Source of the DNA: Leptospiraceae bacterium | GTDB taxonomy: Bacteria; Spirochaetota; Leptospiria; Leptospirales; Leptospiraceae | Length of the DNA: 64,000 nucleotides | Direction: 5' to 3' | Assembly: GCA_015075105.1 (NCBI GenBank) | Contig: JABTUZ010000001.1 | Span: forward strand, 1,003,001 to 1,067,000 | Shown here: positions 12,947-37,421 of the stretch, one piece after another | Numbering within the stretch: position 1 is the stretch's first letter | How the letters are laid out: each line of letters starts with the position of its first letter | Made by a program: the position numbers and the translations under genes | Notes under the pieces: model-generated | Database searches by the model: none | What the model saw: the letters and a program-made list of their open reading frames with translations, nothing else | Told to the model about the DNA's origin: nothing

Positions 12947-14731
12947 ATGGGCGTAACAGGAAAATCTTTTGAAGGTAGTTCGTATGTTAGTCCTGGAGCG
13001 AGAGGAAAATTCAAAGCTCCAAATGTAAGTCAAGGGGTCTCCATTGACGAATTCACACTTGTAATTATCGGGAAAGCTACAAATGGCGTATATTGCAATG
13101 ACTCAAATCTTACCGATGACGAAAGATATATGGTTTTTGCGAACTTTGATGACGCTAAAAAAGTTCTCGGAGGAGGAGAGCTACTTGAAGCAGTTTATTT
13201 AGCCGACTCTCCTTCAGGAGAGGACGATTTTGCAGGCGGTCCGCAACTATTCAAAATTCTGAATGTTTGTCCAAATACAAAAGCATTTTTTGATTTCCCT
13301 TCTTTAGAAACTGGAGAAACGCATAAGATTTCATACCCGATCCCTGGCCCGAATGGAAAGAAAGTCCGGATAAAAAAGAATGCTTCCGCAAAGACAATCG
13401 AAATCGGAAATGCCGATGGGTCTCAAACCTCTCCAAAACTCGAAAGAAAGATTCTCGATGTTACTTACACTGGTGACGGACAGTTTGCAAAAATCACAAT
13501 CGACGCAACAAAAATCAACATAACACTTTCCGGAACGGTTCCTACTGACGGGACTACCAACATTGACGTGTTGTTTGCCGACTACCCTTCAGTTGGCGAA
13601 GCGGTTGATTTTATCAATTCAAAACTTGGCTATGTTGCAAACCTGATAGACGCTCCGGAATTTTTATGTGCGAATCTCGACCATATCAAGGCTGTGGACA
13701 ATATTTCAGTGAAAACAACTGCCGCAACTTTGTATGCGAATCTTTACGAAGAAGAAATCTTCTTAAAAAATTCCGGGCTTGCAGAAATTACAGTCGGGGC
13801 AACGAGAAAGGCGCTTGCAGGCACAACAAACACAATCTTCTTAACGTCAGGCGGAGCAACTGGAACTCCAAGCGGTACGGATGTAAAGGACGCGATCACT
13901 TTCAGCAAAAAAGTTTCCGGTCTTTACAGAAACCTTCTTACATCAACTCTTTCCGACAAGATTTCATGGAAAACGGCAGGGTATGACAACATTTCACCAG
14001 ACGGACAAATGGAAACCATTTCCGGCTGTGGAGGCGATCTTGTCCAAACGGTTGACGAAAGACGTGCCGAGGCAAGAACTCTGGGCGTTTACTGGATGAC
14101 TTACGGAGTAGAAAAATTTGAATTTTTCGGTCTCGATGGAAATAAAAAAACCTATCCGGGATTCATGCTGTCTGTAATCGACAACGCAATTTCAGCCTCA
14201 AACTCCCCAAGGCATTCACCGACTTGGAAGCAGTTAAACATTCTGCGGTCTATGGAAAACCTTCACGGTCTTGTAGGAGACCAGTGTATCCGAGATGGTG
14301 GGTTGGTACTCAGGCAAAATCCAAGTAATCGCGCGTGGGTAATCGAGAGATCGGTTACAACCGAACTCAAAGACAACATCGTTCTGAATGAAAAACAATC
14401 CGTCGGTACTGCGCTTACAATGGTGAGACGTTTACGGGAAGGTTTTAATAGCAGGTTCATCGGACGCGCTCCGGTTGACGATCAGGCTCTTGTCCAGGGC
14501 GTGAAAGTATCAGATGTTATCGGGTATGTAGAACGCTCACTCCAAACGTTCGTAGAAGAAGGGTTTATGATGGGTTCTGCCGAGCTTGGAATCAAGGCGT
14601 TCAAGGAAGAAATCGGAATTCAGATAGACGGCGATACGTGGTCGTTCACAGACCTGCAAGGTAACGTGGTTCTACCGATCAATTTCATCTTTTATATTTT
14701 GAGCCTGAAACCGTTACAGGGTAAGGCGTAA
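12947..14731 (+). CDS. contractile tail sheath protein
   Basis: This 594-aa protein is the contractile sheath that surrounds the tail tube. The N-terminus reads SYVSPGARGKFKAPNVSQGV, followed by a DEFTLVIIGKATNG strand typical of sheath proteins. The C-terminal third carries the family pattern: RAWVIERSVTTELKDN, the GTALTMVRRLREGFNSRFIG region, then an acidic helix and a terminal beta arm. AAGGAG precedes the ATG. The tube gene follows 10 bases downstream, the standard sheath-tube order of myoviruses. Confidence 0.85.
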   Translation: MGVTGKSFEGSSYVSPGARGKFKAPNVSQGVSIDEFTLVIIGKATNGVYCNDSNLTDDERYMVFANFDDAKKVLGGGELLEAVYLADSPSGEDDFAGGPQLFKILNVCPNTKAFFDFPSLETGETHKISYPIPGPNGKKVRIKKNASAKTIEIGNADGSQTSPKLERKILDVTYTGDGQFAKITIDATKINITLSGTVPTDGTTNIDVLFADYPSVGEAVDFINSKLGYVANLIDAPEFLCANLDHIKAVDNISVKTTAATLYANLYEEEIFLKNSGLAEITVGATRKALAGTTNTIFLTSGGATGTPSGTDVKDAITFSKKVSGLYRNLLTSTLSDKISWKTAGYDNISPDGQMETISGCGGDLVQTVDERRAEARTLGVYWMTYGVEKFEFFGLDGNKKTYPGFMLSVIDNAISASNSPRHSPTWKQLNILRSMENLHGLVGDQCIRDGGLVLRQNPSNRAWVIERSVTTELKDNIVLNEKQSVGTALTMVRRLREGFNSRFIGRAPVDDQALVQGVKVSDVIGYVERSLQTFVEEGFMMGSAELGIKAFKEEIGIQIDGDTWSFTDLQGNVVLPINFIFYILSLKPLQGKA

Positions 14732-14741
14732 GGAGACTTAA

Positions 14742-15185
14742 ATGGAAGATATTTCAATTGGGCAAATCCCTGATACTTCGATTCTTGTAGGATCAAATGC
14801 AGTAGTTTATATTGACGACAAAGCAGTTGCGTATATGGACGATGTTGACATCGACGAGAACTACAACCAAACAGATATACGAGCAATCGGAGACTTTAAT
14901 CCGAAAGACGTGAAAGCTCTGTTTTTTGAAGGTTCATTTTCTTGCAAGTTGTGGATCATCACTGATTCAAAAGATCCCGGAAAAGTAAAACTACCAGACA
15001 TGCAAAATATACTTACAACAAAAGGACATCTTGTAGAGTTCAGAGAAAAATCTACCGGCAAAAGAATCATGAGAGTAATTGCAAAACTGAACACACAGAA
15101 AACCAATATATCTTCTACTCAGCCATCAAGCAGGAACTGCTCTTTCAAGATCGTTCGTGTCCAACACATGGAGGCGTTTAATTAG
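14742..15185 (+). CDS. tail tube protein
   Basis: This 147-aa protein forms the inner tube of the contractile tail, inferred from its place directly after the sheath and from a beta-rich sequence of tube type (NAVVYIDDKAVAYMDDVDID, then KDVKALFFEGSFSCKLW). The size matches common tube subunits. An AAGGAG site precedes the ATG. The tail-assembly chaperone gene starts 2 bases after its stop. Confidence 0.78.
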   Translation: MEDISIGQIPDTSILVGSNAVVYIDDKAVAYMDDVDIDENYNQTDIRAIGDFNPKDVKALFFEGSFSCKLWIITDSKDPGKVKLPDMQNILTTKGHLVEFREKSTGKRIMRVIAKLNTQKTNISSTQPSSRNCSFKIVRVQHMEAFN

Positions 15186-15187
15186 AA

Positions 15188-15616
15188 ATGTCTTTATTCC
15201 CTGGGTTAGAAAGAGCATTCACAATCGTAGTTGACGGTCTTAGATTTTCAGGAGAATTTCCAAGACCGTCAGATAAAATGAATATTTCAGTAAATATTTC
15301 GCGGAGGCTTGAAGGTCTTCCGGTAGCGTCTATTCAGGGTTCAATGTATGGTTACGCAAATTTAGTAGAAACGCTAAATTATGTAATGACTGAAAGACCT
15401 GAACAATTTAGAGGCGTGAACTTTTGGAATATTGAAGATGAAGAGTTTGTGGCGAGAATATATTTTGAGTTTGAGAAAAAATATGCGACTTACAAAGAGT
15501 CGCTAAAAAAAAATAACGACCGAGGAAGAGATAGACAAGCTCCTCCAGAGTCCAAGCCTTCTAATGAACCTGTACCTCATGCGAGAGTACAGGATATTGC
15601 CGAAAGGATACAATGA
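15188..15616 (+). CDS. tail assembly chaperone, short (unshifted) form
   Basis: This 142-aa protein lies between tube and tape measure, the conserved place of the tail-assembly chaperone (lambda G and GT type). Residues 1-107 are well structured. After a Lys run (LKKNN) the in-frame tail becomes low-complexity and Pro/Arg-rich. An A9 run at 15505-15513 lies where the downstream frame opens, so a fraction of ribosomes should shift and make a longer product. The chaperone is thought to coat the tape measure during tail assembly. Confidence 0.75.
   Translation: MSLFPGLERAFTIVVDGLRFSGEFPRPSDKMNISVNISRRLEGLPVASIQGSMYGYANLVETLNYVMTERPEQFRGVNFWNIEDEEFVARIYFEFEKKYATYKESLKKNNDRGRDRQAPPESKPSNEPVPHARVQDIAERIQ
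15505..15513 (+). promoter_or_regulatory. A9 ribosomal frameshift site
   Basis: Nine consecutive A residues follow CT in the chaperone gene. In the downstream frame the last stop (TAA) is at 15504-15506, and the frame is then open to 15869. A +1 shift, or a -2 shift as reported for Mu, on the AAA codons gives an in-frame fusion of about 226-227 aa. The downstream frame has no ribosome site of its own. Confidence 0.75.
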
Positions 15617-15869
15617 CTTAGGTGACTTCGAGCCGGAGGAGAAATATGGAATTTTTCTGGCAGACTCTCTTTTTAAAGATTTTAAAGACATCAAAAGTTA
15701 CATCGAGCTTACGCACAAACTTGAAAAAGCCAAGAAAGCCGATCCTATGGAATTTATCGGGAAAGGCGATGCTGTCGGATTTGAGAATGTTCGCAAAAAA
15801 ATTGCTGATGCAAAAAAAGCTGATTATATCCAGCAACTTGAAAACCAAATAAAATCAGAGAGAGGGTAG
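15507..15869 (+). CDS. tail assembly chaperone, frameshift extension (T-like)
   Basis: This is the downstream reading frame joined to the chaperone by the shift on the A9 run. It encodes KITTEEEIDKLLQSPSLL, then MNLYLMREYRILPKG and about 85 further charged, helical residues up to KSERG. The ATG at 15564 has no ribosome site, and the residues before it read as normal protein, so independent initiation is unlikely. It lies directly before the tape measure gene, as in other phages with a G/GT pair. About 119 residues would be added to the short form. Confidence 0.72.
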   Translation, partial: KKITTEEEIDKLLQSPSLLMNLYLMREYRILPKGYNDLGDFEPEEKYGIFLADSLFKDFKDIKSYIELTHKLEKAKKADPMEFIGKGDAVGFENVRKKIADAKKADYIQQLENQIKSERG

Positions 15870-15873
15870 AAAT

Positions 15874-17757
15874 ATGTCAGAACAAAAATCCGTAGAGATG
15901 ATGGCAGATAGGGTAATGGCACTTTTATCCGATGAATTAAGAAAAAAATTATCAGAAAACCCATTCGACATGCCAAATCTAAATCAAAAGAAAAAATCTT
16001 CTTCAGGTTCCAGAGGCTCATCGTCGTCCTCTAAATCAAAGACGGCTTCATTTCAGGAAGGGAATAGAGAAGGGCAGGAAGTGGGAAGCCAGATCAGGTC
16101 AGATGCCGATGAACTGAAATCAGGAGAATTTGCAGGCGTAATCAATCGCAAGATCGAGTCTGCCAAAAAATTAAAAGACAGGTTTACATCTAAAAAGAAA
16201 TCCGCAGGGGACGATCAGGGAGGCGGAGTTATGGGTTTTGATCTATCAGGATTATCGAAAAAACAACGACAGAATTTAGTTTTTGGTAGCGCAGTTTTTA
16301 AAAACGTAAAAATCGAGAAAATGATGGGAGGCGGTTTTGGAGGGGGAGGAGCCGGAGGTTTTGCTGGAATTGGCATAGGGGGGAAATCACCAGAATTCCA
16401 GAAAATTATGGCAAAACAACAAAGAGAGAACGCCCAAGCTGGTATGATCCTCCCATCAGGTAGCACTTTACAAAACATCCCAAGGTCAATGGATTTAGGG
16501 GTTAATCTTAGAGGGAATCAGAATCAGAATGCGCCAGCCGGATCACATGCAAGTGATATTGGTAATCCATTATCAAAACTATCTCTCTCAGCAAATTCAT
16601 TTTTAGGTGGTATAGGTGCTATTATGGGGGCAACATTAGCTGCTGGATCTTCTATGGCAGGTATGCATCAACAGGCCATGCAAGGACAAGATTCAACGTT
16701 GGATGTATATGGAAAATATGTAAATGGTGGCGGGAGTCTGGTAAGCAATGCGGAGTTGGCCAAAATAGGTATTGCAAGAGCTAAAATATCAGGTGGAGAC
16801 CACACAACAAATTTATATGAGAAGGACACTGGGGCACATTACAAAAAGGGAGATCTTTATCAATGGAAAGACGAAAAAACAGGGAAAGAATATCTTGACG
16901 TGCGAAAAGAAGACGAAAAGCAAAGGTACAAATTGAAACAAAATAATAAAGATGTACTCGGTATCCAATTCGGTCTCTCACAGGGAATTGGAGGAACTGC
17001 CGGAGCTGAACTTTTCGCAAAACTCGAAAAATATGGTCAATTTGGAGGGTCAAAAAACGACATGAAAAAAATCATGTCAGATGCCATTCACTCCGGATTT
17101 ACGGGTCTACGACAATCCGAATTCTTCCAAACAGTATCCGGAATTTCTGAAAAATCCTACAATTCTGGCATGGGAATTCAAACGGCCGCGGATGTGTCAA
17201 ATACACTCGCTGGTATCAAAATGACAGGTGTTCGGGATAACCGTATTAGCTCAGTTTATGGAGCTATGGATTCCGGATTTAAAACGTCTGGTAATATCAT
17301 GAATTCAATTGCAATGGCAGGGCATTTGTCTTCCGGGAAAGGAATTCTTGAGTCGATGAAAGAATCTGAAAAAGGCGTTACCAGTAAACAGAACATGGGA
17401 TTTATGAAAGAACTCCTCGGTGGTCTTGACCCGGAAACTCGCGGGATACTTGAAAAACAGTGGGGAATCAGTACTGCAACCGAGGCTCAGGAACGAGTCG
17501 TAAATGGAAAAAATCTATGGGAGGTAAACGAACAAATTAATCGCCAAGCTACTGGAACTGATGCGGCTGTAAATAAGGTTGAGGGAACAACAGGGCAATC
17601 GTATAGGTCAACACAGAATGCGATTGACACAATGGCTGCCACAGATAAAACTTTTCAACAAGCATTTCAATTGCAACAAGATGTTGCTATTGGATTATTG
17701 CATCTCGCAAAAAATCTATCAAAGGAATTTCAAGAGTTAAAGAAAAAAATAGAGTAA
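15874..17757 (+). CDS. tail tape measure protein
   Basis: This 627-aa protein follows the chaperone pair. It begins with a helical N-terminus (VEMMADRVMALLSDELRKKL), then a Ser/Lys-rich linker and a Gly-rich stretch (residues about 148-172). A hydrophobic segment lies near 247-268 (FLGGIGAIMGATLAAGSSMAG) and a helical C-terminus follows. This layout and place fit a tape measure, which sets tail length and helps DNA passage. At 627 aa it would specify a fairly short tail. Its stop is 3 bases from the stop of a convergent gene, marking the abrupt left edge of the accessory block. Confidence 0.68.
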   Translation: MSEQKSVEMMADRVMALLSDELRKKLSENPFDMPNLNQKKKSSSGSRGSSSSSKSKTASFQEGNREGQEVGSQIRSDADELKSGEFAGVINRKIESAKKLKDRFTSKKKSAGDDQGGGVMGFDLSGLSKKQRQNLVFGSAVFKNVKIEKMMGGGFGGGGAGGFAGIGIGGKSPEFQKIMAKQQRENAQAGMILPSGSTLQNIPRSMDLGVNLRGNQNQNAPAGSHASDIGNPLSKLSLSANSFLGGIGAIMGATLAAGSSMAGMHQQAMQGQDSTLDVYGKYVNGGGSLVSNAELAKIGIARAKISGGDHTTNLYEKDTGAHYKKGDLYQWKDEKTGKEYLDVRKEDEKQRYKLKQNNKDVLGIQFGLSQGIGGTAGAELFAKLEKYGQFGGSKNDMKKIMSDAIHSGFTGLRQSEFFQTVSGISEKSYNSGMGIQTAADVSNTLAGIKMTGVRDNRISSVYGAMDSGFKTSGNIMNSIAMAGHLSSGKGILESMKESEKGVTSKQNMGFMKELLGGLDPETRGILEKQWGISTATEAQERVVNGKNLWEVNEQINRQATGTDAAVNKVEGTTGQSYRSTQNAIDTMAATDKTFQQAFQLQQDVAIGLLHLAKNLSKEFQELKKKIE

Positions 17758-17759
17758 TT

Positions 17760-18743
17760 TTAATCTTGTAAATAGAACGTAAATGCAGGTGTCCCAATAA
17801 CAGTCTCGGACTTAATATTTCGAATTTTGGAATTGATTTCGTATACATACTTCTTTTTAAACTTTATTGCTTTTGACTTATCATTTGTTGTATAAATTAA
17901 ATCAGCATATATCAAGTCACATGTACCACCTATCTGGTTTTTTTCACAATAATTATCGATATAGAGATCATCTTTTTTTATCTTCCCGCCCCATTTTATT
18001 CCTTTATTGTATTCATCAAAAGGGATAAAAATTTTAAAAGTGACTTTATATTCCCCAGTTCCTACGTCACAATCCTTACAACCCCACAGAGCAAATGCTA
18101 AATACATTCTAAGTGCAGACCGAGGTTCTGAATAATAATATTGATTATAATCTAACCCGACCAAATATGCAGATTTTGATTTATCTTTTTTAAGATCACG
18201 AATCAATCGCTTAATTTTTTTTTCTCCTTCTTGGGACAATTTTTTAATTTCTTCTACGTTTTCAACAATCGCACGTTTGATGTTAATATTCTTACCTTCA
18301 TTGTTTTTATTTATTTTCGAGAGTCTATTTTTGATTATTGTTTTATTTTCATCTTTCTGAATTTCAGTTTCATCTCTTGATTCGTAAGAAATTGGAATTA
18401 GCTCCCCTATAATATCCGAGATTGTCTTTGAGTCACTTTCCCAGACTGCTATTGCTTCTTTGCGTTCTTTCTCGAATCGTGCCTTTTCTTCTGCCTCTTT
18501 CTTTTGCTCTGCAATTTTTTCTTGCTCTTCAGGCGTGAGTGCAGGCTTTACCTGCTTGGCTGGTTCTGGCTTGGGCTGTGCAGGAGTGTCATGGGACTGT
18601 GGTTGTGTGTCAGGCGACTGGGGGAGCGTAGCTTTTTCCTGAGCATTGTTATTTAGCTCATCAGGATTTGCATTTTGCGGGAATATATATGTTGTGTTTG
18701 ATAGTGACACGATGGTGATAAACAGGATTGTTTTTAGCTTCAT
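17760..18743 (-). CDS. secreted proline-rich coiled-coil protein (moron)
   Basis: The start is the ATG at 18743 (MKLKTILFITIVSLSN); a TTG 9 bases earlier is also possible. The 327-aa product has a signal peptide cleaved near residue 23. A Pro/Gln-rich segment follows (residues about 40-68, three QSPDTQPQSHDTPAQ-like units), then a Lys/Glu coiled coil (70-100) and a folded C-terminal domain with paired Cys (GCKDC). It is oriented against the tail operon and convergent with the tape measure. It resembles host-type envelope proteins more than virion proteins, so a lysogen-expressed surface or periplasmic factor is likely. No family is recognised. Confidence 0.6.
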   Translation of the reverse strand: MKLKTILFITIVSLSNTTYIFPQNANPDELNNNAQEKATLPQSPDTQPQSHDTPAQPKPEPAKQVKPALTPEEQEKIAEQKKEAEEKARFEKERKEAIAVWESDSKTISDIIGELIPISYESRDETEIQKDENKTIIKNRLSKINKNNEGKNINIKRAIVENVEEIKKLSQEGEKKIKRLIRDLKKDKSKSAYLVGLDYNQYYYSEPRSALRMYLAFALWGCKDCDVGTGEYKVTFKIFIPFDEYNKGIKWGGKIKKDDLYIDNYCEKNQIGGTCDLIYADLIYTTNDKSKAIKFKKKYVYEINSKIRNIKSETVIGTPAFTFYLQD

Positions 18744-18892
18744 AATGACCAAAAAATAATACTTAGAAAATTACTGTCAACGTGAAATATGAATATTTAG
18801 AAAATAAATTATGTATCCAAAAGAAAAATAATTCTCTAAAAGTCCTCCCAATGGCTTGTTATTTTTTTGTAAGTGCAAAATCACATAAAATA

Positions 18893-19750
18893 CTATAGTA
18901 ATGATCTTTTTATCGATTCAATATTTGCACTGATCCAATTGCTTGCAGTCAATAGGTCATCTTCCATTGGGTCAGAAGTTATAATGAAAATATCTTTTTC
19001 AGTATTGAAAATTCTTTCATTTTTAAATTCATCCATATAATTCATAGAGAATTTACCGTATCCGGCAATTGCAAGGTTTATCGAATGCAGGATAGTTTCA
19101 TCAGATTCAGGTTCTATCACATATTCATCGGACTGTAGGGATAATTTTATTCTTTCTGCTTTGGAATTTTCAAAGATAGCTTTTATAGCAGATATGTTTT
19201 CAGGGTCAATTGGGTTTGGCTTACTAAGATTAATTTCGACTGATTTTATCTTTTTACTTTCGATTATGGAATCGATGTCAGATTCAAAAATCGGTTCAAT
19301 CGCAAGAGTGTTTTTTCCAATAACCTTTTCAATCCCGTGATTGAAGAAAATTTGTAGCTGTTGATGATTTAAGGAAATGTTCTCTTGTACGAAAAGAATT
19401 TTTTCGTTAAAATAGTATAAGAAATTAGTAAATGAGGCTCCTTCTGCGCCATCGACCGTCACTTCTACCGTTTCGAATGACTTACTTGTATTATTATAAA
19501 TTTGTTCCGTAATTTTTGCTTTTGTTTTTCCAATCCTACCGGAAACAAAACGATTTTTCCCATCTTCCCTAATGGAAAAATCACCTTCAGAAATAATATA
19601 ATCGTTTCGTCCGTGAGGTATTCTGATTGGACGGCTTACGAGTTCTTTAAAAAAATATTCAATATTTTTATCTGATAACTGATAGTCTGGAGATGCTGAT
19701 GCACTTTTGATAAATTTATAAAGCAAAAATCTTCTTGGATAGCCTGCCAT
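18893..19750 (-). CDS. unknown 285-aa protein behind structured GC-rich element
   Basis: The ATG at 19750 (MAGYPRRFLLYKFIK) has GGAGAA just upstream. The open frame continues upstream through the GC-rich hairpin element, but those residues look spurious. The protein has no signal peptide or membrane segment. It is mixed alpha/beta, with a C-terminal part containing SVEINLSKPNPIDPENI and ERIFNTEKDIFIITSDP. No family is recognised. It lies in the accessory block beside an IS, a restriction-modification system and a toxin-antitoxin pair, so a defence or cargo role is plausible from neighbourhood only. Confidence 0.6.
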   Translation of the reverse strand: MAGYPRRFLLYKFIKSASASPDYQLSDKNIEYFFKELVSRPIRIPHGRNDYIISEGDFSIREDGKNRFVSGRIGKTKAKITEQIYNNTSKSFETVEVTVDGAEGASFTNFLYYFNEKILFVQENISLNHQQLQIFFNHGIEKVIGKNTLAIEPIFESDIDSIIESKKIKSVEINLSKPNPIDPENISAIKAIFENSKAERIKLSLQSDEYVIEPESDETILHSINLAIAGYGKFSMNYMDEFKNERIFNTEKDIFIITSDPMEDDLLTASNWISANIESIKRSLL

Positions 19751-19770
19751 TTTTTCTCCGTTTTCAATAG

Positions 19771-19908
19771 CTATTATCGACCCGCGGCTGTGCGACGTTT
19801 TCTTTTTGCGCCGATTAAAGCGAAGCAGGCGCGAAAAGAAAATGTGCCGAAGGCCAAGCCGGTATTCCGGCGCAGCGCACCGCCGCTGTTCTGGCTGTCG
19901 AAAAATAG
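19771..19908. repeat. GC-rich multibranched inverted-repeat element
   Basis: A 138-base island much richer in GC than its surroundings folds as nested inverted repeats. The outer arms 19771-19781 and 19897-19908 nearly match, and 19784-19794 pairs with 19876-19886 (10 of 11). Inside, an 18-bp arm at 19795-19812 pairs with 19828-19845 (16 of 18), and GCCGG-TATT-CCGGC stands at 19858-19871. It lies between the unknown gene and the transposase. It may be a structured RNA, a folded recombination site or an IS-associated repeat. Confidence 0.6.
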
Positions 19909-19957
19909 TACCCATTTAACACATACTATTTCATAAGTAAAAAAGGGGTATCAAAAA

Positions 19958-21445
19958 ATGGGAAAATTCAAGAATACAGAACCTTCACAGGGACTAATCC
20001 TTGCAGTAAATCTAAAAGATCAGATCATTGAAGGAAGTTTTGAACATACACTTTCAGTTCTTTTCGAAAAAGATAAAATCGATTTAAGTAAATTAATTTT
20101 GAAATACCATAATGACGTGATCGGCAGAAAGGCATACAACCCCAAGATTCTACTAAAAATTATTTTATTTGCTTATTACAAAGGAATTACTTCGTCTAGA
20201 GAAATTGAAATTGCCTGTAACAAAAATCTCACGTTTATGGCACTGGCAGAAAATGAAAAACCGGATCATTCTACAATTGCAAATTTTGTTTCCTCGATGG
20301 ATAAAGAAGTCAAAGACATATTTGAGCAGGTAGTTCTGATTTGTTTTGAGCTTGGACTAATCAAATCCGGAACTCTTGCAATTGACGGATGTAAGATTTC
20401 GTCTAACGCATCAAAGGAATGGAGCGGAACAATTTCAGAGCTTGAGAGCAAGAAAAGTAAAATAAAAGCAAAAATCAGGGAGATCATGGAAGAACACAAA
20501 AACTCTGATCCAGATGAAAATAATTTCAAGCGGATTGATAAATTGGACAAGAAAATGGAGAAGATCACAGATTTTCTTGCAAATAATGAAAAGAAAATGG
20601 GTAAGCGAAATCATGAAAAGCAAAGTAACATAACGGACAATGATTCATCTAAAATGAAAACATCACACGGAGTTATTCAGGGTTACAATGGAGTAGCTGT
20701 AGCTGATTCTGAAAATCAGATAATCGTAGAGGCTGAAGCATTCGGCGAGGGTCAGGAATATGATCTCTTAAAGCCAATGATTGAAGGAGCAGAAAAAATA
20801 ATCAATCAAATGAACAGAAAAATAAGTGATACAAAAATTCTTGCAGATAACGGCTATTTCAAGGAGTCGAATCTTGAATATCTTGCAGAGAAAAAAATCG
20901 ACGCATATATTCCGGATCAGAATGCCAGGAAAAGAGATCCCAAATTTAAAACCCGTGACAGACATCGCGAAGAAAAAAATCCGAGAGAATACAAGAGATA
21001 TATCGAAAAGGATTTTACATATGTTTCGGAAAAGGACGAATACATTTGTCCGAATGGAGAGTCACTAAATCGTTGGGGAGGATTTACAAATGGTCACAGC
21101 TACGGACGTCGTTACGGCACAAAAAAAGCATCCTGTTCTGCATGTCCATTGAAATCGAATTGTATTTCAGAAAATCAGGATAGACGCGAACTTAATATTT
21201 ATGATGGGGTAAATGTTCCGGAAACAGAAAAGATGCGTGAAAAAATAGATTCAAAAGAGGGCAGGAAAATTTATTCGAAGCGGATGAGTATAATCGAGCC
21301 GGTATTCGGAAATATACGGTTTAACAAGGGGCTGGATTATTTCAGCTTGCGGACAAAAGCAAAGGTCAATATTCAGTGGCTTTTGTGGTGCATGGTTCAC
21401 AACATTGAAAAGATAGTGACTAAAGGGAAATTTAATCTACTTTGA
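19958..21445 (+). mobile_element. IS1182-type transposase gene and element core
   Basis: A 495-aa DDE transposase of the IS1182/IS5 kind. The N-terminal half has HNDVIGRKAYNPKILLKIIL and the NLTFMALAENEKPDHSTI region. A catalytic-type LAIDGCKISSNASKEWSG follows, then KILADNGYF, a Cys cluster (SCSACPLKSNCIS) and the terminal RMSIIEPVFGNIRFNKGLD with WLLWCMVHNIEKI. AAAAGGGGT precedes the ATG. The gene looks intact. Terminal inverted repeats and target duplication could not be fixed by eye; the element probably runs from about 19.9 to 21.5 kb. It inserts beside the GC-rich element, upstream of the opposing 285-aa gene. Confidence 0.85.
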
Positions 21446-21585
21446 GACCTTGAAACTAATGATAGGGTAAAAGAGCAATCATCAGATTTAAAAAAGTGCG
21501 TTAGGTGAAATCGAAATCTAAAAATTTGTAAAAATCTTTAAAGGCAGCCTTTATTGATGTAAATTTTACTATTATTCAACAGCTA

Positions 21586-21606
21586 CGTTATATGCAGTGT
21601 TTGGCA
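21586..21606 (+). repeat. inverted repeat flanking RM module, left copy
   Basis: A 21-base sequence beginning CGTTATATGCAGTGTTTGG matches 20 of 21 bases of the reverse complement at 23928-23948. It lies 48 bases past the end of the methyltransferase gene. The GTTATATGC core recalls integron attC R' boxes, but no full attC is visible. Confidence 0.7.
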
Positions 21607-21619
21607 TAAATACAGAAAG

Positions 21620-21645
21620 CCCAAAGTACAAGGACGTACTTTGGG
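21620..21645 (-). terminator. terminator of the RM operon
   Basis: A perfect 10-bp inverted repeat (CCCAAAGTAC, 6-base loop, GTACTTTGGG) begins 9 bases after the methyltransferase stop. On the minus strand it is followed by a moderately T-rich stretch (CTTTCTGTATTT). It is well placed to end the restriction-modification transcript and might also stop readthrough from the IS. Confidence 0.65.
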
Positions 21646-21653
21646 TAAGACTA

Positions 21654-23165
21654 CTAACCAACTTTATATTTCTTTTTCTTGTCAAATACTAACAAAGCTT
21701 GATCGTCTTTGCTGTTCTCGTATGGATTTGAAAGAAAACTGTGAAGCTTATTGTATTTATTTTTTATTCGTGACAACTCACTCAAACTTATACGTTTTAG
21801 GATATCTACAGTGATTGGTCTTTTAGAATCAAAAAATATTAATGAATTTAGAAATTCTTTAGACTCATAAGAATTTAAAATCATCTCTAGCAATGCAGCT
21901 TCATCACTAGTTCTACATGGAATAAAATAACACGTATCATCGACCATTACGGGTTTATTGTTGAATGGTGGAATAGCTATAAAATTAATATTCTTATATA
22001 ATCCAGATATCGCGATTTTATAATCAGAAAAACTATAGTCCCCAACTCCAAACATTGAAAATCTATATCGATTATTATATATGGAACTGCCCCGATTATC
22101 TAATACATTTGAATGCTTTTCTAAATAGTTCCATGTTTTAGGGTACAACTCTTTAATTGAGCTTGTATCTTCTCCTACATTTTTCTGTGTTATAATTACA
22201 AACTTTCTTGGAATAATGCGGCCATTTCCAAGATCAGACGACTTTAACAAAGGATAAACGCAATCATCTTCAATATCTACAAATTCGCCAAACCCATTAA
22301 TCAGTTTATTATCAACAATACTTAACTCCATTACTTGAGCAGCATCATGTTTTACTCCAGACCGCCATTTACAGTTGGAAAAACCATCTAGGTTTTTATA
22401 TTTTATATAATTATCCAAATTAGAAATCAATTCATTGTTCAAAATTCCGAATTTAGATGAATATTCCTTTTGATAAATATCATCATACACTTCAGCCGTA
22501 TTACTTGAAGATTCATTTTTTGTCAGAAACAATAAACAGGCATCAACGCTAACATTAAATATTTCTTTTGAATTGATTGTGTAAATTTTTGCATTTTGAA
22601 CACCAATTTTATTCTTCCAAAAGTGCATTAATGCTTTTCTAGCTGTGGAAGTTTTGCATAGCATTGCAAGGGAATTGCCATAATTCATCGACTGAACTAA
22701 TTTAATAATCATCCATTCTGCAATGTCAAAGTTTGCTTTTCCAGTTTTTGCATCAAAGCCACGATGTTTTTGAAAATTATTTTTTTTGGGTAGATTATTA
22801 CTATTCAAACTTCCTAACTTTGCGTTTGTAACCCAAGGGGGATTACCTAAAACTAAAGCATTTTTTTCTGACTTAATAATTGTTTCCCAATCAGTATTGA
22901 AAAAGTCTGTTTTACAGACTAATATTGATTCATTTTTTTCAAATCTTGAGCATGCTGACTTATAATATTCATCATTAATCTCATATCCACGATACTGGAC
23001 TTGATCCCCCCAAAGATTGAACGCGGCATTGATAAAACTGCCAACCCCTGATGTAGGTTCAATTACCAATGATGGTTTATCAATTAGTTTTCCAATCAAA
23101 TTCACAACATCATTAGCAAAAATATCTGGGGTTTGAAAGTCACCAAATTCTATTTTTTTTGACAT
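21654..23165 (-). CDS. N6-adenine DNA methyltransferase of a type II RM system
   Basis: This 503-aa protein methylates adenine in the recognition site to protect host DNA. Motif I is near residues 34-46 (VIEPTSGVGSFINAAF) and motif IV is NPPW near residue 106 (ALVLGNPPWVTNAK), typical of the Eco57I-like class. A long C-terminal target-recognition region follows. The start ATG overlaps the stop of the nuclease gene (TAATG), so the two are co-translated with the nuclease first. That order is risky for a newly infected host unless expression is controlled. A terminator-like hairpin follows. Confidence 0.85.
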   Translation of the reverse strand: MSKKIEFGDFQTPDIFANDVVNLIGKLIDKPSLVIEPTSGVGSFINAAFNLWGDQVQYRGYEINDEYYKSACSRFEKNESILVCKTDFFNTDWETIIKSEKNALVLGNPPWVTNAKLGSLNSNNLPKKNNFQKHRGFDAKTGKANFDIAEWMIIKLVQSMNYGNSLAMLCKTSTARKALMHFWKNKIGVQNAKIYTINSKEIFNVSVDACLLFLTKNESSSNTAEVYDDIYQKEYSSKFGILNNELISNLDNYIKYKNLDGFSNCKWRSGVKHDAAQVMELSIVDNKLINGFGEFVDIEDDCVYPLLKSSDLGNGRIIPRKFVIITQKNVGEDTSSIKELYPKTWNYLEKHSNVLDNRGSSIYNNRYRFSMFGVGDYSFSDYKIAISGLYKNINFIAIPPFNNKPVMVDDTCYFIPCRTSDEAALLEMILNSYESKEFLNSLIFFDSKRPITVDILKRISLSELSRIKNKYNKLHSFLSNPYENSKDDQALLVFDKKKKYKVG

Positions 23166-23821
23166 TATGATACCCTATGAATTCCTGATATTGTGCCAGC
23201 AACATCAATAACTCTGGAATATTGAAGTCTCCATTGTAATGCATTTGATATTGTAAGATAACCCAATTGCGGATGATTTTTCAATACTTCTTCAGCAAGC
23301 TCTTGAGCTTGGATTTCATCGACAGGTAATAAACGTTCTTCAAAGAAGGCTTTGATATCATCAATATTTCCCTGATTCTCAATTATAGCAATTAAGCCAG
23401 AGGTAGTTTGAAAATCACCAGTTCTAGAATCATCCACATAGATTGTGTGAAGTATATTTAATCTTCCTGTATGATTTTCTTCATTGTCTTGCTTATCATA
23501 AACAAAGACCAATAAAGAATAACCAAGGCCATAAATTTTTTGTCTCGCAGATTTAAAAGGGCAAGATGATTGGGGTTGTTTGATACTCGTAACTTTTATA
23601 TCAACAAAAAGACCAGGAAAATCCATGCCTTTTGCAGAAGATCCTTCAACGTAATCATAATTCTCATGCAAATACTTTTGAAATTTGTGTTCTAAGTATG
23701 TACCTACGGCTTTTCCATCAGTTACGCCGAACAAAGATGGTTCATCATATTGCGATTCTATCTGAGAAAAACGTTTAGCTTCTTCTTTTAATTTTTGAAT
23801 AGTCAATTTGACCTTTTTCAT
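23165..23821 (-). CDS. type II restriction endonuclease, PD-(D/E)XK fold
   Basis: This 218-aa nuclease is upstream of and coupled to the methyltransferase. Residues about 63-80 contain the likely active site, SSAKGMDFPGLFVDIKVT, matching the D-x(n)-(D/E)xK pattern; a nearby Glu in GTYLEHKF may complete the metal site. The N-terminus is a Lys-rich helix. The recognition sequence cannot be read from the protein. The pair is likely a functional type II system carried by the prophage. Confidence 0.75.
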   Translation of the reverse strand: MKKVKLTIQKLKEEAKRFSQIESQYDEPSLFGVTDGKAVGTYLEHKFQKYLHENYDYVEGSSAKGMDFPGLFVDIKVTSIKQPQSSCPFKSARQKIYGLGYSLLVFVYDKQDNEENHTGRLNILHTIYVDDSRTGDFQTTSGLIAIIENQGNIDDIKAFFEERLLPVDEIQAQELAEEVLKNHPQLGYLTISNALQWRLQYSRVIDVAGTISGIHRVS

Positions 23822-23927
23822 AATATCCTCTAAAAACTGCTTATGTATTATTTCTAACTACTCTGCATACCGTCAATTCTTTTAATATCGCCGAGCCAAG
23901 GATGGCGAGGCTCTCTTGATGATGTGT

Positions 23928-23948
23928 TGCCAAACATTGCATATAACG
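23928..23948 (-). repeat. inverted repeat flanking RM module, right copy
   Basis: Reverse-complement copy of the 21-base sequence at 21586-21606, with one difference. It lies 107 bases upstream of the restriction endonuclease gene. Two short nested inverted repeats, TCGCC/GGCGA and GAGCC/GGCTC, occur beside it (23888-23913). Together the two copies enclose the RM genes in a segment of about 2.36 kb. Confidence 0.7.
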
Positions 23949-24061
23949 GTTGATTCATGTTAATACAATGCAAAATATATAAAAAAGTACAAGGAATAAA
24001 TTTTTCTAAATTCAGTTGTAAAGAACTACTTAACAACTGAGCCAAAAGACTTTGAAATATA

Positions 24062-24271
24062 TCACTTCCAAACAAAATCCAGTTTCTTGTGCTTAACAGC
24101 ACATTCTGATAGATACAGATTAATTAGGTTCTGATATGGGATTCCAGTCTCTTTTGTCAAGTTCTTGAAATACTCAATAGTTTCCAAATCCAATCGTATA
24201 GTTATTGGCTTCTTTAATTTTTTCGTGTATGGATTTTTTCTTGAATGAACGAAACTATATTCTTTTCTCAT
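24062..24271 (-). CDS. brnA: BrnA-type antitoxin
   Basis: This 69-aa protein is the DNA-binding antitoxin of a BrnT/BrnA pair. After a basic N-terminal stretch it has a ribbon-helix-helix region, ITIRLDLETIEYFKNL then ETGIPYQNLINLYLSEC, characteristic of BrnA/CopG-like antitoxins. Its ATG overlaps the toxin stop by 4 bases (ATGA), the usual toxin-first BrnTA order. It should neutralise BrnT and repress the operon by binding the promoter region near 24.57 kb. Confidence 0.82.
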   Translation of the reverse strand: MRKEYSFVHSRKNPYTKKLKKPITIRLDLETIEYFKNLTKETGIPYQNLINLYLSECAVKHKKLDFVWK

Positions 24272-24558
24272 AATAACTCCTCATATTCTTTAATCTCTTG
24301 CTTTGTAGCTTTTCTTGCGGATATTATCCTGATTGTTTCATCTGACAATTTGTAGCAATGGCATACAGTTAATAATTGAAATTTGTAACTTCTACCTAAG
24401 ATTATAAATCTCTCTTCCTTAACAGAATGATCCGGATCGTCAATAATTCTTGCATTTTCGTCATAGAAAATTGTTTTAGCTTCCTCAAATGACACTCTAT
24501 GTTTTCTTATATTTGCTTGGTTTTTCTTTTCATCCCACTCAAATTGAATTTCATACAT
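24268..24558 (-). CDS. brnT: BrnT-type ribonuclease toxin
   Basis: This 96-aa toxin is of the BrnT (RelE-like fold) family. It starts IQFEWDEKKNQANIRKHRVSFEEA, the strongly conserved BrnT N-terminus, followed by ERFIILGRSYKF and the C-terminal IRIISARKATKQEIKEYEE. The ATG at 24558 fits the family length; an upstream TTG would add seven residues. The known activity of the family is RNA cleavage under stress. The predicted -10 box is so close that the messenger would be almost leaderless. Confidence 0.85.
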   Translation of the reverse strand: MYEIQFEWDEKKNQANIRKHRVSFEEAKTIFYDENARIIDDPDHSVKEERFIILGRSYKFQLLTVCHCYKLSDETIRIISARKATKQEIKEYEELL

Positions 24559-24567
24559 ACAATATAC

Positions 24568-24596
24568 ATATATTAGCAATATGAATATCTTGTCAA
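24568..24596 (-). promoter_or_regulatory. brnTA promoter with overlapping dyad
   Basis: On the minus strand TTGACA (24591-24596) and ATATAT (24568-24573) are 17 bases apart. A CATAT-N7-ATATG dyad overlaps the -10 region. This fits the autoregulated design of brnTA operons, where BrnA binds over the promoter. Confidence 0.55.
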
Positions 24597-37334: not shown

Positions 37335-37407
<73 letters not shown>

Positions 37408-37421
37408 CAGCTTGTAGCCTA

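Follow-up and report, generated by a model that had tools for sequence, protein, structure and literature searches.

An invariant run of nine adenines at the probable frame change of a tail assembly chaperone in LE1-like prophages of spirochaetes

Introduction

Tail chaperone genes of the lambda gpG/gpGT type, with equivalents in Mu, P2 and HK97, are small genes located between tube and tape measure that encode an N-terminal chaperone domain and, in another frame, a C-terminal part, which is expressed when slippage takes place close to the end of G. The shift of lambda is -1; a -2 shift is known for Mu (PMC5009743), and a +1 shift for some tail genes (PMC5009743). In an annotated set of actinophages the distance from slip site to 0-frame stop averages 26 nt (PMC10885494). 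Tail G/GT frameshifting is among the most widespread phage recoding events and is treated as ribosomal; none of the literature searched describes a tail chaperone that uses polymerase slippage.

Slippage of RNA polymerase is a second means of changing frame. A long homopolymer is the main cis element in Thermus thermophilus dnaX (9 Ts) and Citrobacter rodentium tssM (11 As). Runs of A9 or T9 slip efficiently in vivo (PMC5009743), and at the A11 run of tssM a +1 restoration of about 20% takes place via polymerase slippage (PMC4256274). As a rule of thumb, a constant shift direction among relatives is read as ribosomal (PMC3711429).

Here we describe a tail chaperone locus of a Leptospiraceae prophage, located at 15188-15869 of a 64,000-nucleotide stretch (the window) of contig JABTUZ010000001.1. 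A previous sequence-only reading of this stretch had placed a programmed frameshift on a run of nine As in a tail chaperone gene and pointed to the -2 shift of Mu. All features of the locus given below are on the plus strand.

Methods

Homologues were collected from LE1 and other Leptospira phages, IMG/VR contigs, Leptospira plasmids and two further genomes, G018, with 51% GC and from the same taxonomic order, and G049, a MAG labelled Brevinema. The site was compared over 35 loci, some of which are the same phage in two collections, and over the 18 representatives that share less than 95% nucleotide identity. A distant set was reached by similarity of the tail sheath, followed by a search with the ST4 chaperone, which resulted in six distinct proteobacterial phages that share the gene order. 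G and T were modelled as separate chains. The names tube and tape measure derive from weak matches, position and length.

Results

The run and its reading frames

The 0 frame starts at 15188, preceded by a Shine-Dalgarno-like GGAGG, and ends at 15616, which corresponds to an unshifted product of 142 aa that consists of the chaperone G and a 0-frame tail. It crosses nine As (15505-15513), flanked by T on both sides, as ...TCG CTA AAA AAA AAT AAC. In the downstream frame the last stop is a TAA at 15504-15506 that overlaps the first two As of the run; this frame continues as AAA AAA ATA ACG and remains open until the TAG at 15867-15869. This T part, at 15507-15869 in the +1 frame, has 120 codons, is homologous in all relatives and shares 76% identity with that of relative L042. 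The ORFs of the 0 frame (15188-15616) and the +1 frame (15507-15869) thus overlap, and in 15514-15616 the 0-frame tail ...RVQDIAERIQ is encoded together with T. Fusion of G after Lys108 to T would yield a GT of 226 aa (108 residues of G and 118 of T), or 227 aa with one more Lys, as in a -2 shift or in A11.

The sequence-only reading had located the run, the last downstream stop and the opening up to 15869 correctly, and the +1/-2 relation that it gave is that of the two frames. It had counted 18 residues ahead of the first ATG of the T frame where there are 19 (KKITTEEEIDKLLQSPSLL), the ATG being at 15564; that this ATG lacks a ribosome site is borne out by the absence of a Shine-Dalgarno sequence at 15564 (TCCAGAGTCCAAGCCTTCTA).

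Since the AT-rich host genome of 3.42 Mb contains 604 exact A9 runs on both strands, the presence of the run is weak evidence and it is its conservation that forms the argument. The exact coincidence of A9 with the opening of the second frame, together with its invariance in 35 loci and 18 representatives, is above chance.

Gene context

The tail sheath (12947-14731) matches phrog_279 tail sheath (1.4e-57) and is 57% identical to that of LE1 and 25-33% to the sheaths of Aeromonas ST4, Bordetella PHB04 and Pseudomonas Dolphis. In the LE1 record the corresponding gene (NC_048892.1, 33005-34789), of that same 57% identity, carries the name 'protein kinase C binding protein'. The tail tube (14742-15185) matches phrog_365 tail protein (0.006) and Pfam DUF2001 tail tube (0.04), both weakly, and shares 77% identity with LE1 and 94% with L042. 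A large ORF (15874-17757) of 627 aa is the putative tape measure protein, based on its place after G/T and its length; its match, phrog_3763, has no named function. The order sheath, tube, G/T (15188-15869) and large ORF agrees with the earlier placement of the pair exactly between tube and tape measure, and is the same in LE1 and the six distant phages.

Tape measure proteins correspond to 0.15 nm of tail length per residue. At this rate the 627 aa predict a tail of about 94 nm and the 568 aa of the LE1 homologue one of about 85 nm. The contractile tail of LE1, the best relative among phages, measures 75-115 nm (PMC6078989). The prophage that carries the locus is closest to Leptospira phages, and the best explanation of the locus is a G/GT tail assembly chaperone of a contractile-tailed, LE1-like prophage.

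The region 17760-24579, which separates the tape measure from the baseplate genes, contains minus-strand genes. Reading of the sequence identifies a putative transposase (19958-21445), at 21654-23821 a probable methyltransferase together with a restriction-like partner, and at 24062-24579 a pair that resembles a toxin-antitoxin system. A tRNA-Phe (GAA) at 37335-37408 may be phage-encoded or an attachment site.

Identity of G and T

The profile phrog_1038 'tail assembly chaperone' is matched by 11 of 20 members of the G family (best 9e-4) and phrog_25000, with the same name, by one of the 20 (0.0025). The AlphaFold model of G (pLDDT 83, pTM 0.74) retrieves viral tail assembly chaperones in Foldseek with E-values of 3e-4 to 6e-3 and TM-scores of 0.58-0.64, including those of Lactobacillus phage 521B (3e-4) and Bacillus phage JL (6e-3). 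Its top structural match in the PDB is the HK97 tail chaperone 2OB9, a weak match below significance. No convincing family was obtained for G in Pfam, and its sequence had only a chance match among solved structures. As judged by its modelled fold and the weak profile matches, the first half can be assigned to the tail assembly chaperones (G). Together with gene order and the conservation of the second frame, these matches agree with the G/GT pair of the sequence-only reading.

The model of T is helical and has no clear structural relative. A profile of 226 positions, phrog_21489, aligns colinearly with G at 1-110 and T at 106-220, and its length is that of the predicted fusion, which argues for GT. 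The source of this fused profile was looked for and not found.

Conservation of the site

In all 35 loci and all 18 representatives the site reads YTA AAA AAA AAT, with Leu as CTA in three and TTA in 15 representatives, and the two Lys (AAA) and the Asn (AAT) identical in 18/18; all wobble bases of the run are thus fixed. The other conserved columns of G (16/16) use two to five wobble bases. Neither A8 nor A10 occurs in close relatives, the run length being always exactly nine, and the TAA of the +1 frame is at the same place in 18/18. Even between the close relatives window and L042 the Leu codon switches between CTA and TTA while its wobble A is unchanged. Chance retention of this A in five distant lineages has a probability of about 0.005 as product of codon fractions. 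In G018 the run is the sole A- or T-run of six or more within 3.5 kb, and its codon usage alone would give NTA AAA AAA AAT with a probability of about 0.008. The MAG G049 has GCC AAA AAA AAA TAT, exactly A9, starting at codon position 1 rather than 3 and with T still at +1. In all relatives except G049, T opens at the TAA that overlaps A9, followed by K-K-I.

Frames that do not overlap at the run in close relatives had been named by the sequence-only reading as evidence against a shift; there are none, every close relative overlapping there. Given the invariance of the site and the conservation of both frames, a programmed frame change at A9 that makes GT is very probable, as the same reading had proposed.

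LE1 gp32/gp33 (YP_009860171/YP_009860172) and the corresponding genes of LE1-like Leptospira prophages and plasmids are direct homologues with the same A9 and the same frame relation; they differ in annotation, the records showing either a pair of hypothetical proteins with no relation to each other or a single long unshifted ORF. The Leptospira phage papers that were checked make no mention of a frameshift. A scan of the genome contigs with the Leptospira chaperones gave no matches, and one with the T part of G049 returned the G049 record only.

That T is a separate protein with its own ribosome site, A9 being incidental, fits the in-frame ATG at 15564 and the separate annotation of the second gene in the LE1 and LinZ_10 records. 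However, 15564 lacks a Shine-Dalgarno sequence and is not conserved, LE1 and other relatives having no Met there; no start codon is common to the relatives, K-K-I is invariant upstream of every ATG and A9 is invariant in 35 loci. Hence, for want of a conserved start or Shine-Dalgarno sequence, separate translation of T was rejected as very improbable. In the LinZ_10 record (KF114880.1; L005:3935-4558) the G gene is missing and the T part alone is listed.

Phase variation or a homopolymer sequencing error, the true gene being a single fused ORF with A8 or A11, is hardly credible: homopolymers are error-prone and phrog_21489 has the fused length, but exactly A9 is found in 35 loci from different sequencing projects and the 0-frame tail is itself constrained. 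It was rejected since the run is always A9.

A second A9 (TAC AAA AAA AAA GAG or GAA) is found about ten codons upstream in L012, L015, L017, L022, L024 and L054 (e.g. L054:472-480). Slippage at this upstream run would merely truncate the product.

Routes to the T frame

The T frame can be reached from the 0 frame in three ways, namely by an mRNA that loses one A (or gains two), by a ribosomal -2 shift or by a ribosomal +1 shift. On balance the conservation pattern favours RNA-polymerase slippage as the route to GT. We infer the production of GT, the G:GT ratio and the roles of G and T as follows. The majority product would be G, in which translation continues in the 0 frame past A9 to a short tail of its own (142 aa), and slipping of A9 would give GT (226 aa, ...SLKK-ITTEEE...) as minority product. 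RNA polymerase would drop one A (A9 to A8), upon which the altered mRNA would be translated normally into the T frame; two extra As (A11) would lead to the same frame with one more Lys. The slip rate would set the G:GT ratio and, by analogy with lambda, G would coat the tape measure and T would recruit tube subunits.

Since the wobble A of Leu lies upstream of both the coding of T and any tRNA re-pairing, run length is the only easy explanation of its fixation. In a ribosomal -2 shift, in the direction of Mu, peptidyl-tRNA-Lys on the last AAA would slip back onto A3-A5, resulting in an extra Lys (KKK-I). This fits the frame relation and the tendency of lysine runs to shift; in the common phase (TTA AAA AAA AAT), however, re-pairing does not need the first A, yet this A never varies. 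A-runs moreover favour -1, which here hits TAA or TAG at once in most relatives. The probability of chance retention, about 0.005 over five distant lineages, is modest and to that extent limits the case for polymerase slippage. The lineage of G049 can be read in two ways: it keeps the length of A9 and not its codon phase, as polymerase slippage would have it, and in its phase both tRNAs could re-pair perfectly, which suits a -2 shift; the other codon phase is, furthermore, found in this lineage only. We consider a -2 shift unlikely.

The ribosomal +1 shift, with tRNA-Lys on AAA moving one base forward onto AAA, would have the direction of the apparent UUU_CGN site of the distant relatives described below, such that ribosomal +1 may be ancestral. 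The next codon, AAT (TAT in G049), is neither a stop nor obviously slow, four or five As would be enough where nine are invariant, and in the A9 clade the TAA with which the run begins closes off the old UUU site. We regard this route as distinctly unlikely.

Polymerase slippage is supported by the fact that the relatives share A9 and no other element; a hairpin or downstream structure common to them was not found and is not required. It is further supported by the slipping of A9/T9 in vivo (PMC5009743) and by the A11 precedent of tssM (PMC4256274). Against it, all relatives need the same direction, which the rule of thumb reads as ribosomal (PMC3711429); a constant direction would be equally expected from common ancestry. 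The second A9 of several relatives, at which slippage would only truncate, likewise counts against it. Of the mechanism given by the sequence-only reading, the frame change and its direction stand. The implied ribosomal -2 after the Mu model is not supported, as nothing here shows -2, which is one of three routes and not the best backed; RNA-polymerase slippage, which that reading overlooked, fits at least equally well.

Structures near the run

An 8-bp hairpin (TGCGACTTacaaaGAGTCGCT; 15484-15504) abuts A9 in the window (-9.5 kcal/mol, p=0.014 within the locus), and a strong hairpin is found in this position in the window and L042. In Roseiflexus IS elements a nascent-RNA hairpin abuts the run as well; in the A9 family it is present in the window but not family-wide. 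Slippage stimulated by a stem-loop was rejected as a family rule (Fisher p=0.24 over 12 lineages, 0.58 without the window). A downstream pseudoknot or stem for a ribosomal shift was also rejected, there being no consistent structure within 60 nt of the run, and the lack of a conserved stimulatory Shine-Dalgarno sequence or downstream structure speaks against -2. A further hairpin, CCTGTACCTC..GAGAGTACAGG at 15569-15593, about 55 nt past the run, is kept in L042 and was not seen in LE1.

The unshifted tail

Past the run the 0 frame is open for 36-38 codons in the clade of the window and LE1 and for 96-108 codons in other Leptospira phages and G018. The short open frames are unremarkable (simulated probability 0.06-0.20), whereas for each of the long ones simulation conditioned on the T protein and codon usage gives a probability between 0 (of 5000) and 0.024. 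Long dual coding is found for instance in L006:4276-4573, L010:4282-4600 and L030:1824-2106, mostly longer than expected. In the short overlap T-synonymous changes are suppressed, with 6/29 in the first 38 codons against 30/61 in the rest between the window and L042 (p=0.012) and 9/37 against 31/66 between LE1 and L044 (p=0.035); suppression in the long overlaps is inconsistent between pairs. Because of the substitution pattern in the window/LE1 clade and the openness in the other clade, the unshifted tail is probably a selected product.

The site in distant phages

In the six distant phages (ST4, Dolphis, PHB04, Touem01, fHe-Yen8-01 and phiT5282EW) T is also at +1 to G, without A9. They and the spirochaetal genome G244 all (7/7) carry NNN TTT CGN as G-frame codons at the point where the +1 frame is open (L059:6402, L060:7378, L061:7584, L062:898, L063:895, L064:895 and L034:1789); the product of TTT codon fractions for its carriers is 3e-4. 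The +1 site of influenza PA-X is UCC UUU CGU (PMC8310308). NNN_UUU_CGN is a likely +1 ribosomal site in these genomes. Their annotation lists G and T as two separate hypothetical proteins or gives only one of them. Profiles of the two G groups align colinearly to the end with an E-value of 0.0017 and a probability of only 15%; homology of the G of the A9 clade and that of the distant phages is likely. In a distant spirochaetal tail module, G389, G and T are joined by an apparent classical -1 site, A AAA AAC (L041:2191, reverse complement of L041).

Discussion

In the A9 clade a +1 shift at the old UUU place would meet the TAA at the run, and the simplest history we infer is that A9, about six codons further downstream, took over from the ribosomal +1 site. 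Taken together, we tentatively propose, as a possibility short of probable, that a clade of spirochaete phages sets its chaperone ratio by polymerase slippage on A9, having replaced an ancestral UUU_CGN, and has a selected unshifted tail over up to about 90% of T. A clade in which a run of nine As is the sole conserved signal, apparently in any codon phase, makes it possible to test cleanly if RNA polymerase can take the place of the ribosome in tail G/GT recoding, and how a recoding site can move and change its mechanism while its function is preserved. The annotation of LE1 and of many Leptospira prophages and plasmids is corrected as well, G and T having been recorded there as hypothetical proteins with no relation to each other.

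Compared with described systems, the locus resembles lambda gpG/gpGT and its equivalents in its place between tube and tape measure, its N-terminal chaperone domain and a conserved second frame, joined to the first by a conserved slippery site towards the end of G. It differs in that the shift is +1/-2 where that of lambda is -1, and in that the 0 frame runs 36-108 codons beyond the slip site. The -2 re-pairing of Mu is possible at the A9 site but leaves the wobble A of Leu unexplained. UUU_CGN of the distant phages is like the influenza PA-X site as a motif resemblance only, and is absent or dead in the A9 clade. As to Thermus dnaX and tssM, the locus shares the conserved homopolymer of about nine or more, A9 being present in 18/18 representatives and G049, and, as with tssM, a +1 restoration is needed. 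Both are cellular genes for which slippage has been demonstrated, whereas at the A9 locus of these phages slippage is proposed from the conservation of the run.
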